Source of the DNA: Pseudoprimorskyibacter sp.
GTDB taxonomy: Bacteria > Pseudomonadota > Alphaproteobacteria > Rhodobacterales > Rhodobacteraceae
Assembly (NCBI GenBank): GCA_029251265.1
Contig: JAQXDR010000148.1
Span: forward strand, 1-50,706
DNA length: 50,706 nt
Direction of reading: 5' to 3'
Shown here one piece after another: positions 1,031 to 17,525 of this stretch; the first letter of the stretch is position 1, and every line of letters begins with the position of its first letter. The notes below the pieces were generated by a model. It had not been told where the DNA came from. It saw only the letters and a list, made by a program, of their open reading frames with translations, and ran no database searches. The position numbers and the translations under genes are program-made.

Positions 1031-4000
1031 TCAAGCTGCTAAGACGGAAAATGGACCAGAACCAAACCGCGTGGACAGTTGAGCAACCTTTATTACAACG
1101 TGAGGTCCGTCAGCAGCACGCGCCTCTTGAGAGTATACAAAAAGCGGAGTCGTCAAAATTTCTTCTCTCAACAGCAGTCCATCTCTCTCTATGCGCAAGA
1201 TATATTGCTCGATTTCTTCACCAAGAGGCACCTCCAGCGCGTTCCATTGGTCTCCATCGATCCGGGTACGACGAATCCAGCTTACGTGTAGATTTTCTGA
1301 TACAGTCTTGGCTCGCAAATGAACGACACTGTAGGGCCGCAAACCATTTCCCAAAAATGCATTGGTCTGATGAATATAAGAGCCATGATCATAACTCTGG
1401 GATGCAGGCCCAATTCGGTAGTGTCGCAAAATCCCACGTGATGACGACGGCATCGGCAATTGCTCCGGCACACCGTTCAAAGCCACAAGGTAAGAGCCAA
1501 CCGGCCAGAGCGTTGGCATAACACCATCTGTGCCAAGTCTCCCACGCAGACGTCGCGACAGATCGTAGGTCCGCGTGCCCACCAAAGTTGCGACGCCCGC
1601 TTGGAAAATTTCCCACACGTCAGATGTGCCATCACCAATAGCAAATGTGTTGCCTCCGGCCAGCAGCATTTCGGAGTCGATTGAAGATAAATTACCGCTT
1701 GTAAGCCGAACCCGCAATGGATCTCCACGGTCTAACGTAGCAGAACTTGCCGAATGCATCTCGCTTTGCGTGACACCAATAATTGATTGTCTTTCGATCG
1801 TTTCATCAAGCCTATATGCAGAATCGGTTGCACTGGAGTAAATTGCAACTGGTCCAGTCCAAGGACGCGCAGCGACCGCAACATGTGGCGCGTGTGAATC
1901 CTCGTCTCCAGTGAGAAGTGGCAAATCCAAGAAAAGAGGGAAAACTGGCGCTGCTGGTGTGATTGATGGCAAGGATACAGGGGCATCAGAAAACCTTGCC
2001 GGCACGTATATACTTGTGTCGGTCCGCGTCGCGTCACATATAATTTCAGTTCCGATCTCTACGCGATCAATTCGTACAATGATCGATTGTATCCCAAGTT
2101 CCAAATCAACCAGATCCCCGGGACCAAGATGCAGATAGGACAAAGGTAAAGCAAACCGAACAGTATCCCGCGATATTTGAGCATCCTGCAACCAACGTTC
2201 CGCTAATTGTCGACCTTCACCTCGTGTCAAAACCAAAGGCAATTCCGACGCAGCAGCGCCAGAAAATGTGCTCTTTTGTAAAGTGGCCTCTTCCACGATC
2301 TCACGATGTTCGCCATCTGCCTCTATAAAGCGTACGCGAACACGCTCCGGCAGTTCAGCCAGTGGTGCTCGGGTCTGCTGTACAAGAGCATCAGATTCAG
2401 AATTTTCGGCTAAAACTGACGTATCAACTTTTGCCAGAACGGCATCGGATCGCTGTGAAAAAGATAAAACTCCGGCCCGTTCCACCGCATCCAAACCATG
2501 GGCCAACAACAGCGGCTGCAACGCCTGTCGAGCATCTTGGACGTCATCCAAAGCATAGCCTCGTATCAGGCCTGATAGACGCGATGTATCAACGTCATAC
2601 AAACCTGCTTCAGCGCAAATATCCTCTATCAATCGAGCAACGGGGGTGTTGCTCATCCGACCCGAGATCCAGTGACCACGTGCATAATTCGACCCATCAC
2701 TCCAAAGCGTCTCGGCGTTGGGAAACCAAGGGTAAGGTCGTGCATCCCAAGCCCAGACAAAAGCATGCGACATGTCCACCATAGATTTTTGATAAATGGT
2801 GCTTATCGGCGAATTATTGGCCCAATATCTATGCATTGCGTTCAGGTAGGCATTTTGAATACCCTCATCTCTACCACCCGAAGAGTACGGTGGTAGCGCA
2901 CTTTCAGAAGATTTCGGATCAACAAATAGATTTGGTGCATTGGTGCCTTTATCTACCGCCGCGCAACCGAGTTCGGTAAACCAAATGGGTTTGGATTCAG
3001 GGACCCAAGCTGTTGCATTGGATTGGCGTATACCATCAATCCTTTCGTGGTGAGCGTTCTGCCACCAACTGCGGATATCCTTGTAGCGATAGATCCAGGG
3101 CTCTGAATGATCACCATCTAAAATTAAGCTGCGGATTTGTGCGTCGCGGTCTGATTGGCTCGCGTAGTACCAGTCAAAGCCCTCACCGCCCTCAATGTTG
3201 GCATCCAGATACTCCAGATTGGCAATATTTCCCCAATGTGCATCCACATGGTTCTGACTATCCCGCCAATCACTCAATGGCATGTAATTATCTATGCCAA
3301 TAAAATCGATATCGTCGTCAGCCCAAAGCGAATCAAGGTGAAAGTAGACATTCCCGCTACCATCTTGTGGATGATACCCAAAATATTCAGACCAATCTGC
3401 CGCATAACCTATTTTGGTATCAACACCCAAAAGACCGCGCACTTCCGCCGCTAATGATCTTAATTGGTGAACAGCGGGGAAGCCGGTTAGACCACGTAAA
3501 TGGGTCAAGCCACGCATCTCAGATCCAATACAGAATGCTGCAACTCCCCCAGCGGCTGCGCAGAGCGCCGCGTTGTGCAAGATAAACCGTCGATAACTCC
3601 ATTCAAGTGGACCGGTGTAGACAACACGTCCCGCTGCCACAGTAAAATCAGCTGCGCTGGCTGAGCCGAAAAAAGACGCAACTTCGGCGTCAGCGATTGC
3701 TGTACCATCTGGCGAATTTGGCCTTCCAGGTGCTGCGGATCCGGTAATTCTACCGCGCCATGGGAACACCGGTTGATCAACCGCCCCTGACCATGGATCG
3801 ATTTTCCCGTTTCCTGCTATCTGATCCATCAGAATGAACGGATAGAACATCACCTCGCGCGAAGATGAGTGAATCGCCTTAATCGCCTCAATAACCGATG
3901 CATCCGCAGGTGTTCCACCGTACAGTGGCTTGTCTTGGTCAGAAGGTACAACTTTTGCAGAAGCGCGGTTCAGTCCAGATACAGTCCAAGGCATGGAACC

Positions 4001-13344: not shown

Positions 13345-14757
13345 TCAGATTGAACGAAACCGTGGTTGACGCCACTTGGCTGCCGGCACAATAAGGGCTT
13401 CGGTCAAGGCCCAGACAAGCGCATCAACGCGATCCGGGCTTCCCTTGCCGTCATACCCTTTTAACGTCATGCGGGTCATCTGATCCTCAAGCACATCCAA
13501 CCCGGCCAGATGCGACACCCGTCCCTGCTCGTATAGGGCCGCAACCGGTTCTGCACGCGCGACCTTACCCTTAGACGCATGTACCTTGGTCAACGGCACC
13601 AGCGGATCCACCTGCCGCAAAACAGTTTCTACGAGATCCCCACCCTGGTTGACCTCTGCGACCAAACGATCGCCGCCCCATTTTTCCATGGCCGTTATCG
13701 CACGGCGAGCCCAAGCCGTTGGCCCGACACCCTGAACGGTAGCATCGTCCAAAACCACGGCGCGCCAATCTTGTGGTGCGCCCTGCATAACCGCCCCTAC
13801 GACGACTATTCCACAGGCGTCCGATCCCTTGTGACCGGTCACAGGTGGGTCAACGGCAACTAAAACCCTGTCAAACTCAGGCGGCGTCTTCAAACGGGCC
13901 GTATCGAGATCATCGGCGCGCCATAACGCGCCCTCCGCCTCTTCAACCAAAACGCCGTCCAATTCCTGACGACCAAGACGTGTCCCTGCGTAGCGCGCCC
14001 GAACCTCTTCTAGAAAACTGTCGGCCAGATTTGCACGGTTCGCTTCGGTCGGTGCATGGGTCACGACTGTTGACGGGCTGTTCAATAATTGCCGCAGTGC
14101 GGGAACTGATCGTGGGGTGGTCGTGACACACACTTGGGGACGATCACCAAGCCGCAAGGCAAACTGCAACATATCCCACGTATCGCCAGCCTTTTTCCAT
14201 TTTGCCAACTCGTCCACCCAAGCTGCATCAAACTGGGGCCCTCGCAATCCCTCGGGATCATGGGCCGAAAATGCCATAGCCTCGGCTCCGTTGGGCCATG
14301 TCAGGCAACGCCGCGTTGCGCTCCATGTTGGACGCCGGTCTGGCGGAGAACACGCAAGGATCCCGCTTTCCCCAAACACCATGACCTCACGCACCTGATC
14401 GAGGGTCTCTCCGACAAGCGCCACCCGTTTGGCTTGGCCTTTATCCAAGGGGCGTGCGCCCTCGACCATGGAACGAACCCACTCCGAACCCGCGCGGGTT
14501 TTACCCGCGCCGCGTCCTCCCATGATCACCCAAGATCGCCAATTGCCCTGCGGCGGCAATTGATGCGGCAGGGCCCAGAACTCGAAAAGAAAAGGGAGAG
14601 CTAAAAGCTCTCCCTCACCCAGTTCAGCCAGGAAGGCGTCCCGCGTCGCAGCAGGTTCGGATCCGAGCCAAGCGGCACCCGATCTCAACGCGTGCGATGT
14701 CAAGGTCGAGTCCGTAGTCTCCGGCAACACCGGAGTTTTGTCGGTTAATTTGGTCAA
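13345..14757 (-). CDS. GTA g2: terminase large subunit
   Basis: The DNA-packaging motor, about 470 residues with the chosen start. Walker A is IMGGRGAGKTRAGSEWV; Walker B is AAWVDELAKWKKAGDTWD. The C-terminal nuclease has RVLVAVDPPVTGHKGSDACG, RLVAEVNQGGDLVETVL and SPDRVDALVWALTEAL, with acidic metal ligands in place. The longest reading starts at ATG 14871, deep inside g1. I prefer TTG at 14757, which has a GGAG site about seven bases upstream; a GTG at 14730 is another option. Overlap with g1 is real in every case. Headful, host-DNA packaging is expected from RcGTA. Confidence 0.93.
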   Translation of the reverse strand: MTKLTDKTPVLPETTDSTLTSHALRSGAAWLGSEPAATRDAFLAELGEGELLALPFLFEFWALPHQLPPQGNWRSWVIMGGRGAGKTRAGSEWVRSMVEGARPLDKGQAKRVALVGETLDQVREVMVFGESGILACSPPDRRPTWSATRRCLTWPNGAEAMAFSAHDPEGLRGPQFDAAWVDELAKWKKAGDTWDMLQFALRLGDRPQVCVTTTPRSVPALRQLLNSPSTVVTHAPTEANRANLADSFLEEVRARYAGTRLGRQELDGVLVEEAEGALWRADDLDTARLKTPPEFDRVLVAVDPPVTGHKGSDACGIVVVGAVMQGAPQDWRAVVLDDATVQGVGPTAWARRAITAMEKWGGDRLVAEVNQGGDLVETVLRQVDPLVPLTKVHASKGKVARAEPVAALYEQGRVSHLAGLDVLEDQMTRMTLKGYDGKGSPDRVDALVWALTEALIVPAAKWRQPRFRSI

Positions 14758-14962
14758 GTTCTTTCTCCGTTTCTCGGGCTGCACGCAGCCAGTAGCGAAG
14801 TTCCGACAACACCGCGTTGCCGTCCTTCTTGGTAGCCTCTCCAGTCCGAGCTCTCTTTCGGAGCTCTTCAAGGTCTTCGACCATGTCCGCCAACATCTGT
14901 GCGATTTTCTGGCATTCGTCTTCCAGCGCCGAAGCGCGCTCTTCGATTTTGATCAAGGTCAT
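14624..14962 (-). CDS. GTA g1: small terminase-like protein
   Basis: A 112-residue, mostly helical protein (MTLIKIEERASALEDECQ... then LEELRKRARTGEATKKDG and LRYWLRAARETEKELDQINR) that matches RcGTA gp1, a small terminase subunit that lacks the specific DNA recognition of phage TerS. The reading frame stays open up to 15103, but that start lies within a promoter and terminator hairpin, so I begin at ATG 14962. An ATG at 15013 directly after the hairpin U-run is the alternative. The 3' part overlaps g2 by roughly 130 bases. Confidence 0.82.
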   Translation of the reverse strand: MTLIKIEERASALEDECQKIAQMLADMVEDLEELRKRARTGEATKKDGNAVLSELRYWLRAARETEKELDQINRQNSGVAGDYGLDLDIARVEIGCRLARIRTCCDAGRLPG

Positions 14963-15013
14963 CTGCTCGTCTTGCCTTTTTTTTGGCTGTTTTGGATCTC
15001 CGTCCAACGGCAT

Positions 15014-15049
15014 AAAAAAACGACCACCGAGGTCACCCCCGGGGCCGTT
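15014..15049 (-). terminator. Strong terminator-like hairpin in the g1 leader
   Basis: On the minus strand AACGGCCCCGGGG, loop GTGA, CCTCGGTGGTCGTT, then T-run. With one bulged U the stem has 13 pairs (two G-U) closed by a GNRA loop and followed by five more U residues. It looks like a complete intrinsic terminator. It lies 26 bases beyond the -10 box of the putative GTA promoter and 51 bases before the g1 ATG. It is either an attenuator of the GTA operon or the end of the upstream yicC-gmk operon. Confidence 0.7.
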
Positions 15050-15074
15050 TGCCCAATTCGTCCAGCATGTCATA

Positions 15075-15103
15075 ACTCTATCTTCGACCGTGCGGTCTGT
15101 CAA
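15075..15103 (-). promoter_or_regulatory. Putative GTA promoter
   Basis: TTGACA (15098-15103) and TAGAGT (15075-15080) with exactly 17 bases between them on the minus strand. The spacer contains GACCG-CA-CGGTC, an imperfect dyad that could be an operator. Transcription would start near 15068 and run through the leader hairpin into g1. It is the best sigma70-like match upstream of the cluster; regulator binding (GafA or other) cannot be judged from sequence alone. Confidence 0.55.
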
Positions 15104-15228: not shown

Positions 15229-15756
15229 TCAAACCTCAATTTTCCGAAGCCCGGCCGCAAATCTTTGGCTGTTGGCCTGATATACCTGAGCAGAAAGCCT
15301 TAACCCCTCGATCGCAGCCTCATCCAGCGCACGAACAACCTTTCCAGGCATCCCCATCACCAATGATCCATCTGGGATTTCCTTGCCTTCGGTGATCAAA
15401 GCACCGGCCCCAATCAGGCAATTCCGACCGATTCTTGCACCGTTTAGAATCGTTGCTCCCATTCCAATCAGGCTATTGTCCCCAATCTGACACCCGTGCA
15501 GCATGACTTTGTGACCAATCGTACATCCTGCGCCAATGCTCAACGGAAAACCAATATCCGTGTGCAGGACACAGTTTTCCTGCACATTGCTGCCCGCGCC
15601 CACGGTTATTGTTTCGTTGTCACCTCGTATTGTGGAACAAAACCAAATGCTGGCTGCGCTTTTGATCACAACGTTCCCAATAACGTTGGCGTCTGGCGCA
15701 ATCCAGGCATCCGCCGCAATTTCAGGTGCCAGACCATCTAAAGAATAAATCGTCAT
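15229..15756 (-). CDS. Gamma-carbonic anhydrase family protein
   Basis: A 175-residue left-handed beta-helix protein of the gamma-class carbonic anhydrase/YrdA-PaaY family. Repeating hexapeptides run through most of the length, for example [20 protein letters not shown] and [16 protein letters not shown]. Candidate metal histidines are in [22 protein letters not shown]. The family binds zinc or iron in trimers; true carbonic anhydrase activity is not certain and many members have unknown substrates. Its ATG overlaps the gmk stop by four bases, so it is the third gene of the yicC-gmk operon. Confidence 0.9.
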
Positions 15757-16397
15757 TTCTGTCCCTCTAGAAATTCCTGCTGCAAGCTGCGCACATGGGC
15801 CGTCAAGGTCGGCTGCTGATCACGCCGCATGCGTTCAGCTTCGACAATCGTGCGCAAGCGTCTCTCTGTGGCATCAAGATCGTCGTTGACCAACACATAA
15901 TCATATGCGCTCCAGTGGCTGATCTCGTCCCAACTTTTTTGCATGCGCTTTGCAATGATCTCGGGACTGTCCTGACCACGGGTCTCCAAACGCCGTCGCA
16001 GTTCTGTGATGGAGGGCGGCAACAGGAAAATTGACAGAGCGAATTTGCCAAGGCCACTGTTTCGGATCTGCTGCTCTCCTTGCCAATCCACATCAAAAAG
16101 AACGTCGCGCCCGGCCTCAATGCTGTCCTTCACAGGGCCTGCGGGCGACCCATAAAAGTTGCCAAACACATGGGCATGTTCCAGCATCTGACCATCAGCG
16201 ACCTGAGTTTTAAAAGCATCCTGAGAAAGAAACAGATATTCGCGCCCATGCTGTTCACAAGCCCGTGGTGCGCGCGTGGTTGCCGAAACAGAAAAGCTAA
16301 GACTTGGGTCCCACGCCATCAATCGACGCGCCAAAGTGGATTTTCCCGCGCCTGATGGTGAGGATAGGATAATCAAAAGACCACGACGGGTGCTCAT
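15753..16397 (-). CDS. gmk: Guanylate kinase
   Basis: A 214-residue guanylate kinase (GMP + ATP to GDP + ADP). P-loop [15 protein letters not shown] at about residues 12-26; the GMP-binding region includes [10 protein letters not shown] and [12 protein letters not shown]; lid region [16 protein letters not shown]. It follows yicC after three bases and overlaps the next gene. The size fits the family. Confidence 0.97.
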
Positions 16398-16400
16398 CAG

Positions 16401-17291
16401 TTACTCCACATTTTGGACTTGTTCACGCATTTGATCGATGACGGTTTTCATCTCTAACCCGACCGCTGTTAACCCAGAAGACTGCGCTTTTGAACACAAC
16501 GTGTTGGCTTCTCGATTAAATTCTTGCATTAAAAAATCTAGCTTACGTCCGACAGGCTTTGGATCTGACACCAGAACATAGGCTGCGGTGATATGACTGC
16601 GCAGTCGATCAATTTCTTCGGTAATGTCAGATTTCACAGCAATCAACGCAAGTTCCTGTGCAACCCGGTCAGGATCCATATCACTTACAAGCGTAATACG
16701 TTCTAATGCCTGCGATAGCCTTTCATTCTGTGCATCGCGGCGGCGCTCTACCTCTGTTTCAGCCTGCGACACCAAACCCTCAATGTCTTGTAGATGGCGC
16801 AACAATATCGCGGCCAGCGCGGCGCCCTCACTCTGACGCATCTGCACAAAAGCCGCCGCAACCTCATCAAATTCCAAAAGAAGCTTATCGCACAGTGCTT
16901 TTGGATCAGTTTCGTCGACTGCGAGTTCCATTACACCACGCTGTCCTAATAGATCCGCTGCGGTGGACGGAGCAAGATGTAGGCCCCGATCTGCAGCCTC
17001 CGTTTCTAAAGCCGCAAAAGCATCCAGTACCGCATCCATCTGTACAAGATCCAAACGCAAAACAGACGCACGTTCACCTGACGCATTCATCCGCAATCCA
17101 ACGGTCACGCTTCCACGGCTGATGCGTGCGGACAGGATCTTGCGCAGACCGACCTCTAACCCGTCGATCCAGTCGGGCACGCGCACGCGCACATCCAGCC
17201 CCTTGGCATTGACGCCGCGCAGTTCCCAGCTCCAGCGTAGCCCATGGCCCGTTCCCTGCTTGTTAGCAAACCCGGTCATTGATTGGCGCAT
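16401..17291 (-). CDS. YicC family endoribonuclease
   Basis: A 296-residue YicC/YloC protein beginning MRQSMTGFANKQG, the standard N-terminus. The C-terminal DUF1732 region has EIDRLRSHITAAYVL and GRKLDFLMQEFNREANTLCS, with conserved acidic residues. Recent work describes YicC as a ribonuclease acting on RNA in sRNA turnover; that is family knowledge. I chose the ATG at 17291 because a GGGGA site lies just before it; the open frame runs on to 17507 without any support. First gene of the operon with gmk. Confidence 0.93.
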   Translation of the reverse strand: MRQSMTGFANKQGTGHGLRWSWELRGVNAKGLDVRVRVPDWIDGLEVGLRKILSARISRGSVTVGLRMNASGERASVLRLDLVQMDAVLDAFAALETEAADRGLHLAPSTAADLLGQRGVMELAVDETDPKALCDKLLLEFDEVAAAFVQMRQSEGAALAAILLRHLQDIEGLVSQAETEVERRRDAQNERLSQALERITLVSDMDPDRVAQELALIAVKSDITEEIDRLRSHITAAYVLVSDPKPVGRKLDFLMQEFNREANTLCSKAQSSGLTAVGLEMKTVIDQMREQVQNVE

Positions 17292-17525
17292 CGCGTCCCC
17301 TTTCTGAAAGCATTGAATTATCGCGGTTTTTTGAGTGATGGCAAGCCCAAGAGAACAAACACCAGCTCGACCACGCCTTTTGGCATTAACCATTTTGCAA
17401 CTTCGATAAAGAAATTCATAAAAGTTCGGAGTACTAAGATTAAAAGCAAATTCGTAGCAAATGTGTGGCGAAGTGGAAGCACTTCGGCTGGTTAACATGG
17501 CGCGCAACTAAAAGAGGACGAAATT

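Follow-up and report, generated by a model that had tools for sequence, protein, structure and literature searches.

The window, by which we mean the whole stretch of 50,706 nucleotides that was analysed, carries on its minus strand a structural cluster of the RcGTA type, in which portal, capsid and large terminase (TerL) are confirmed by Pfam. The promoter, hairpin and g1 that make up the leader region of this cluster all lie on the minus strand, and upstream of them on the same strand are yicC, gmk and a hexapeptide-repeat gene (15229-15756). Broken frames resembling an IS3-type transposase (68-947, recognized by eye) lie beside the GTA cluster, at its end. The front of the operon has the following features:

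15098..15103, minus strand: -35 element TTGACA; TTGAC[T/A] is kept in a promoter-independent alignment of loci
15081..15097, minus strand: 17-nt spacer GACCGCACGGTCGAAGA with a candidate GafA (GafZ-like) element; CG-NN-CG core and CGGTC conserved
15097-15086, minus strand: dyad GACCG-CA-CGGTC inside the spacer; perfect form in only 2 of 143 loci
15075..15080, minus strand: -10 element TAGAGT, from the sequence
15051..15074, minus strand: initial transcribed sequence, consensus CAWGCTRGAAGAARTGGGC; GCT[AG]G at most 22 nt from the -10 in 139 of 146 loci
15050-15018, with U-tract 15020-15014, minus strand: T1, terminator-like leader hairpin; from fold, conservation and covariation
14992..15007, minus strand: small second leader hairpin TTGGA-CGGAGA-TCCAA; weak in the window, stronger in many relatives
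14624..14962, minus strand: g1 (position of the GTA small terminase), ATG start; start aligns with relatives
14580..14616 (stem 14616-14592), minus strand: T2, terminator-like hairpin with U-rich tail; 11 pairs, -18.1 kcal/mol
13345..14754, minus strand: terL (large terminase), start codon provisional, frame open to 14871; from Pfam

A promoter of the form TTGACA-17-TAGAGT, with a dyad in its spacer and followed by a hairpin and g1, had been claimed in a preliminary description of this DNA, and it is present there on the minus strand. Transcription is predicted to start at A15068, which would give a leader of 106 nt up to the ATG of g1; T1 begins ~18 nt past this start and spans about 20-50 nt after it. 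The T1 stem in the window has 14 pairs when three basal A-U pairs are counted, with a GUGA loop of the GNRA type, one bulged U, a calculated energy of -22.2 kcal/mol and seven T residues at 15020-15014. The loop and the U-run are those of the earlier account, and its 26-base gap is corrected here to 24 nt between the -10 element and T1. Between T1 and g1 the region of the small second hairpin is more stable than its own shuffles in 86% of 146 loci, and this hairpin may mask the ribosome site. In many relatives, e.g. L022, L036 and L191, a hairpin CTCTCGTGCGGAG..GCATGAGAGG with CGGA toward the loop is found between T1 and the g1 start. Read from ATG 14962, g1 encodes 112 aa, and its frame has no stop as far back as a TTG at 15103 (159 aa) that overlaps the -35 element; since the frame reaches so far and the starts of the relatives match ATG 14962, the danger of a mis-annotated 5' end, of which the preliminary description had warned, is real, and g1 starts in GTA clusters are easily mis-annotated.

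Taken by itself, the sequence of the window remains within chance expectation, with 4 promoter-like sites observed against 3.1 in shuffles and with 20 of 200 shuffles folding as well as the 139-nt leader, so that the case for a leader element rests on conservation. Folding of the plus strand of the region gave nothing beyond shuffles. The promoter-plus-spacer pattern has one exact match in the host genome and, with 2 mismatches permitted, 5 sites as compared with 8 for a reversed control pattern. A covariance model of the leader, built from 66 leaders (R1, see below), has one match in the host genome (E 3.5e-17), the next best having an E of 0.13.

For the comparison with relatives, TerL was found in 352 of the 394 genomes of the family, and loci were drawn from family genomes (130, the window's own included) and from relatives among the Rhodobacteraceae and roseobacters (80). 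Enough upstream DNA was available for 209 loci, of which 191 were non-redundant, and the loci were oriented by tblastn. A terminator-like hairpin, defined by a dG of at most -12 plus TTTT and searched in a 250-nt leader region, occurs in 161 of the 191 loci; the same rule gives 28 of 191 for shuffled leaders and, in control stretches, 22 of 187 for upstream coding sequence and 22 of 187 for g1. A promoter score of at least 28 was reached by 162 loci, and in 146 of these the hairpin starts 6-60 nt past the -10 element, at a median distance of 25 nt (quartiles 24-25) and with a median energy of -22.8 kcal/mol. Sixteen promoter-bearing loci have no hairpin under the strict rule; when weaker U-tracts are allowed, a looser rule that was applied without a shuffled control, the hairpin is found in 157 of the 162, and five are still without it.

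The model R1 matches 305 of the 394 family genomes at E <= 0.01, counting matches anywhere in a genome irrespective of proximity to g1; among the R1 matches listed (150 places in 150 genomes) the weakest has an E of 7e-13, and weaker matches may be ordinary terminators. Across 289 genomes of the class, R1 matched three family members out of the five listed there and, weakly and through the hairpin part only, three other genomes. Forty-two of the 49 loci tried from the set of 80 relatives have a leader match, that of L176 being through the hairpin part only. Most of the related genera that were examined retain the pairing of a promoter with a putative stop signal. The earlier claim of a terminator in the operon's own leader is upheld as far as it concerns a conserved, covarying hairpin whose distance from the promoter is fixed, and termination at this hairpin is predicted from its sequence.

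The conservation extends to the promoter itself. A motif in the spacer, GCGNACGGTC, and the beginning of the transcribed sequence (consensus given above) recur across loci, and the spacer measures 17 nt in 143 of the 146, although these motif figures are biased upwards, as the promoter score by which the 146 loci were picked includes the spacer and initial-sequence motifs. An alignment on the terminator plus GCT[AG]G alone (145 of 161 loci) avoids the promoter score, and from it a -35 of TTGAC, the CG-NN-CGGTC motif within GCGNACGGTC and a TA-rich -10 emerge, with CAWGCTRGAAGAARTGGGC surrounding the anchor, in which GCT[AG]G is fixed by construction. The perfect five-pair spacer dyad, to which the preliminary description had drawn attention, is a local property of the window; its frequency is about that expected from the column frequencies, and palindromy beyond the CG-NN-CG core shows no excess in the 143 loci. 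We have rejected the dyad as a conserved element, and it is the motif around it that is conserved. The initial transcribed sequence is a candidate pause or loading element, in which, despite its strong conservation, no clear -10-like pause element was seen by eye.

An alignment of leaders across roseobacters had been suggested as a check for compensatory changes in the stem, and such changes were found in two separate sets of loci. The first alignment consists of 66 of the 146 hairpin loci, hand-picked after the sequences had been viewed, and includes 11 stem pairs; 91.0% of its cells are paired against 78.7% in shuffles, 93 cells are double changes against 25.7, and the covariation score is 0.407 against 0.194, with none of 500 shuffles reaching any of these values and slid versions scoring at most 0.194. 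The second is the gappier alignment of the other 80 hairpin loci, on which RNAalifold returned 4 pairs only and for which 8 outer pairs were set by hand. Here 91.9% of cells are paired (85.0% shuffled), double-change cells number 41 (12.2 shuffled), and the score is 0.291 (0.170 shuffled), each beyond all 500 shuffles. On the TerL tree, where 31 rows have a tip, no fewer than 4 switches between A-U and G-C are counted for one stem pair, and for a second pair no fewer than 6 changes from one Watson-Crick type to another. Given the double changes in both sets and the repeated switches on the tree, the alignments identify T1 as a kept structure, beyond mere inheritance of sequence.

The second terminator-like hairpin, T2, lies just past the g1 stop in the 5' coding end of terL, over its conserved first codons (EGELLALP). 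It is more stable than the codon-shuffled mean in 84 of 104 loci, and in 51 loci it is equalled by 5% or fewer of 50 shuffles, the codons for these shuffles having been pooled over all loci and left unmatched for G+C. At least 9 of the 11 pairs are present in 50 of the 104 loci, and T2 is absent from the other 54, R. capsulatus among them. Its arms co-vary as GGGAGAGC/GCTCTCCC (15 loci), GGGAGGGC/GCCCTCCC (10) and GGGAGCGC/GCGCTCCC (2), with GGAAGAGC/GCTCTTCC and GGAAGCGC/GCGCTTCC in one locus each, and these changes alter the encoded residue (E, G or A at codon 3). Over the 104 loci, 75.8% of cells are paired, as compared with 71.0% in shuffles (maximum 72.6) and at most 61.5% in slid versions; there are 55 double-change cells where shuffles give 25.6 (maximum 34), a count that the slid control at -2 surpasses with 61, and one pair, with at least 21 state changes on the tree (mismatches included), contributes 36 of the 55. 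In the operon front of 74 loci there are 225 terminator-like matches in the sense and 52 in the antisense direction, with 61 matches in the bin of T1, 31 in that of T2 and no antisense matches in either. Sense-only peaks can be made by codons, as seen for a peak at terL +450, and this weakens the case for T2, which is nevertheless likely to be a second lock, its covariation being weaker than that of T1. The +450 peak was rejected as a third terminator-like site, as it consists of diffuse hairpins over conserved WPNGA..AF codons. This weak sense-only peak (terL +430..+510, about 14271 in the window) comprises 27 matches in the 74 loci, was seen in 45 of 104 loci and is probably codon-driven.

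Beyond the family, 27 other alphaproteobacterial TerL loci gave no clear excess, 10 having a sense and 6 an antisense terminator-like site before g1. A promoter-like sequence can be seen by eye before the terminator-like site in L251/L254, L263, L265, L266, L272 and L274, and L253 and L258 have an AACGGT spacer and a CANGCT start in common (by eye and one regex). The sites outside the family hint at an older origin of the leader arrangement.

Insights into what might act at this leader can be drawn from studies of the activator GafA. Relatives of GafA are annotated as DUF6456 (PMC9638019), and the host genome has one DUF6456 gene, a frame of 368 aa identified with the PF20057 profile, as its gafA candidate; a DUF6456 gene is present in 364 of the 394 family genomes. 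(PF08299, tried as a probe for gafA, had one host match, taken for dnaA.) GafA of R. capsulatus is reported to bind one of five 50-bp probes, that at 76-125 bp before g1; its C-terminal domain binds this probe too, and an N-terminal piece binds the two adjacent probes (PMC6363796, PMC9638019), so that the spacer is not GafA's sole contact. When the bound probe is mapped on the R. capsulatus locus L191 (strain SP108, with the same g1 start assumed, ATG at 3790), it occupies 3665-3714 and runs from the end of the -35 through the spacer, the -10 and the initial sequence to the foot of T1. The Caulobacter protein GafZ has its homologous counterpart in the C-terminal portion of GafA, and GafA has been suggested as a possible antiterminator (PMC11150451, Tran & Le 2024).

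The sequence analysis provides the anatomy of the leader, the fixed spacing, the covariation of T1, the conservation of spacer and initial sequence together, and a candidate for gafA. From these we infer termination at T1 and T2, a GafA-dependent readthrough and a pause for loading. The layout is that of the AlpA and lambda Q operons, GafZ is an antiterminator and GafA binds the probe just described, and for these reasons T1, and probably T2, can be read as locks that GafA opens. The marks of operons of the antitermination type, namely a conserved element in the spacer, a putative terminator before the first gene and a gene for the presumed activator in the same genome, are recognizable here. 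We therefore consider it probable, by analogy, that the GTA late operon has a promoter-proximal lock of the kind used by lambda Q, AlpA and Caulobacter GafZ, opened by GafA. T1, as an intrinsic terminator ~20-50 nt past the start, would keep the late operon shut, and T2 at the start of terL would probably be a second stop in this species and in about half of the relatives studied. Without the activator, polymerase from the GTA promoter would halt at T1 and leave a leader RNA of ~50 nt. GafA (DUF6456, a fusion homologue of Caulobacter GafY and GafZ) would bind within the spacer that separates -35 from -10 and load on RNA polymerase that is still at the conserved first bases; the modified polymerase would then run past T1, T2 and the stops beyond them, in the manner of lambda Q at pR'-tR' and of AlpA at alpB. 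The conserved pairing of promoter and stop suggests, in short, that the activator of particle production works partly by taking polymerase through the stop. Counting against such a lock are the route through RpoZ-omega by which GafA works in R. capsulatus, omega not having been pulled down by GafZ (PMC11150451), and models of GafZ that are unlike Q or AlpA.

A different role for T1 would be that of an insulator, blocking housekeeping transcripts that arrive from upstream (from mltG, or here from the hexapeptide gene) before they reach the lethal GTA genes, while the GTA promoter's own polymerase passes T1 because activated initiation is strong. The upstream gene is indeed co-directional in most loci, with mltG in this position at 145 of 187 loci (116 of these carry the hairpin at its fixed site), and the window has no other terminator between 15229 and 15103, i.e. 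between the hexapeptide gene and the promoter. Of the 42 loci without a co-directional mltG, 28 have the hairpin. Against an insulator, the position of T1 is fixed relative to the promoter (by the quartiles given above). The longest upstream frame is on the opposite strand in 21 loci, and Pfam confirms a divergent gene in 11 of these. Five of the 11 (L098, L107, L110, L126 and L128) lack T1, which speaks reasonably for shielding as an additional role; their promoter blocks are weak too (scores 20-28), and the whole promoter-leader block seems to have been lost. The other six (L015, L028, L046, L118, L120 and L173, in which L015/L173 and L046/L120 are related pairs) keep T1, contrary to what shielding would lead one to expect. 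A further terminator-like site precedes the -35 in 27 of the 116 mltG loci with T1, some of these sites resembling coding hairpins, and R. capsulatus (L191) is among them, its promoter being preceded by a separate terminator and followed by T1. Three decayed GTAs each keep mltG and the promoter-leader element: L228 (G053), in which the front part of TerL is fused to the end of g15; L276 (G260), which is without portal and most of TerL; and L277 (G306), which is without g1, TerL and portal. Their retention of T1 behind mltG favors the insulator and, being explicable by shielding too, counts against a lock opened by GafA. Since T1 as an insulator would stop the GTA's own transcripts as well, and in view of its tie to the promoter, we regard insulation as an unlikely explanation of the hairpin. 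A simpler variant, that the hairpin is not conserved and serves solely to end the yicC-gmk transcript, had been named in the preliminary description as grounds for giving up its proposal, and it does not agree with the survey: none of 186 other loci shows gmk, yicC or the hexapeptide gene in the 1.4 to 4 kb of DNA covered per locus, and T1 has neither the distribution nor the placement of a plain upstream-operon terminator, occurring as it does at divergent loci too and in a position tied to the promoter. In the window the GTA lies behind yicC, gmk and the hexapeptide gene (15229-17507) in place of the usual mltG, and either the cluster or the neighbor has moved in this lineage.

The leader is both conserved and structured, and a second hairpin, often GGA-bearing, follows T1 in many relatives, as might be expected of classical cis attenuation or of a riboswitch, in which a leader peptide, a ligand or a competing hairpin would set the balance of termination and readthrough. 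The preliminary description had spoken of a possible attenuator, which in the strict sense is not supported and appears extremely improbable: a leader ATG is found in only about 57% of 145 loci, for which reason a leader ORF was rejected, the window has no Rfam match at the gathering score, the beginning of T1 so close to the predicted start leaves scant room for an upstream antiterminator stem, and the lowest-energy fold of the leader in the window (one sequence) retains T1. Protein-loaded antitermination is the better fit to the leader layout. Promoter and terminator together would also yield an RNA of ~50 nt whose 5' end is highly conserved, and T1 might mark where a short regulatory RNA transcribed from the GTA promoter ends, with g1 expressed by ordinary leakage. 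The AlpA and lambda Q operons have a like layout without such an RNA, T2 would be left unexplained and a literature search found no GTA leader RNA; this explanation appears very improbable to us.

If the putative lock opened by GafA is accepted for this operon, the question arises how widely it might apply. That GafA is a Q-like antiterminator throughout the RcGTA family, with each late operon carrying a covarying leader terminator and, in many genera, an additional terL-coded second terminator that costs amino-acid changes, is a proposition that we hold tentatively and would rate at somewhat below an even chance. Were it true, this lethal cluster would be silenced mainly at elongation and less at initiation, and the arrangement would have been retained from an ancestral prophage, perhaps traceable outside the family. 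We found no report of a leader terminator in Rhodobacterales GTAs in a search of the open-access literature, and the word "terminator" is absent from the main text of Fogg 2019 (PMC6363796) and of Sherlock & Fogg 2022 (PMC9638019), the latter of which describes the switch-on of the archetypal GTA by GafA as still under study. A conserved leader terminator would give the idea of antitermination by GafA a physical target in the model organism, and a lock there would explain why the C-terminal domain of GafA binds between the -35 and the start. One reporter could test the question of antitermination by GafA, and promoter fusions that end before the hairpin may report something different from those that include it.

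Several known systems invite comparison with the arrangement proposed here. In phage lambda, tR' is farther from the transcription start than T1 is in this leader. A study of the Bartonella BaGTA, which belongs to a GTA lineage unrelated to RcGTA, reportedly describes the use of antitermination by a GTA and in this resembles our proposal. The closest parallel is PgtaT of Caulobacter crescentus with GafY and GafZ, where, as here, a homologous activator and cluster are combined with an activator element between -35 and -10, GafZ requiring a palindrome in that position, and where the leader is long and the earlier annotation of gtaT had a wrong TTG start, upstream of the real transcription start (PMC11150451). 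GafZ brings about a partial readthrough by RNA polymerase of terGTA and of rrnB T1 (PMC11150451). The Caulobacter terGTA follows directly after the first gene, gtaT, a position comparable to that of T2, and consists of three 150-bp repeats, whereas the sites described here are a compact hairpin before g1 and another inside the terL coding sequence. The excerpted report mentions no leader hairpin at PgtaT, and a leader deletion from +90 to +214 was harmless to GTA production there (PMC11150451); GafA, moreover, is a single protein that needs RpoZ-omega, where Caulobacter has GafY plus GafZ. AlpA of Pseudomonas aeruginosa acts at alpB through an element between -35 and -10, with an intrinsic terminator before the first gene, as in the present case (PMC7969949). 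It shares the lysis of a subset of cells and an activity raised by ppGpp, and is described as indifferent to the loss of omega (PMC7969949), in contrast to GafA. GafZ is said to resemble neither Q nor AlpA in sequence or structure (PMC11150451). A sigma-dependent pause is proven for lambda Q (PMC7171158) and is a guess only for the leader described here. Lambda Q resembles the DNA-binding helices of sigma factors (PMC7171158), as the C-terminus of GafA tentatively does (PMC9638019), and at pR'-tR' it combines a binding element embedded in the promoter with the antitermination of a late virion operon (PMC7171158), which is the combination that we propose for the GTA.
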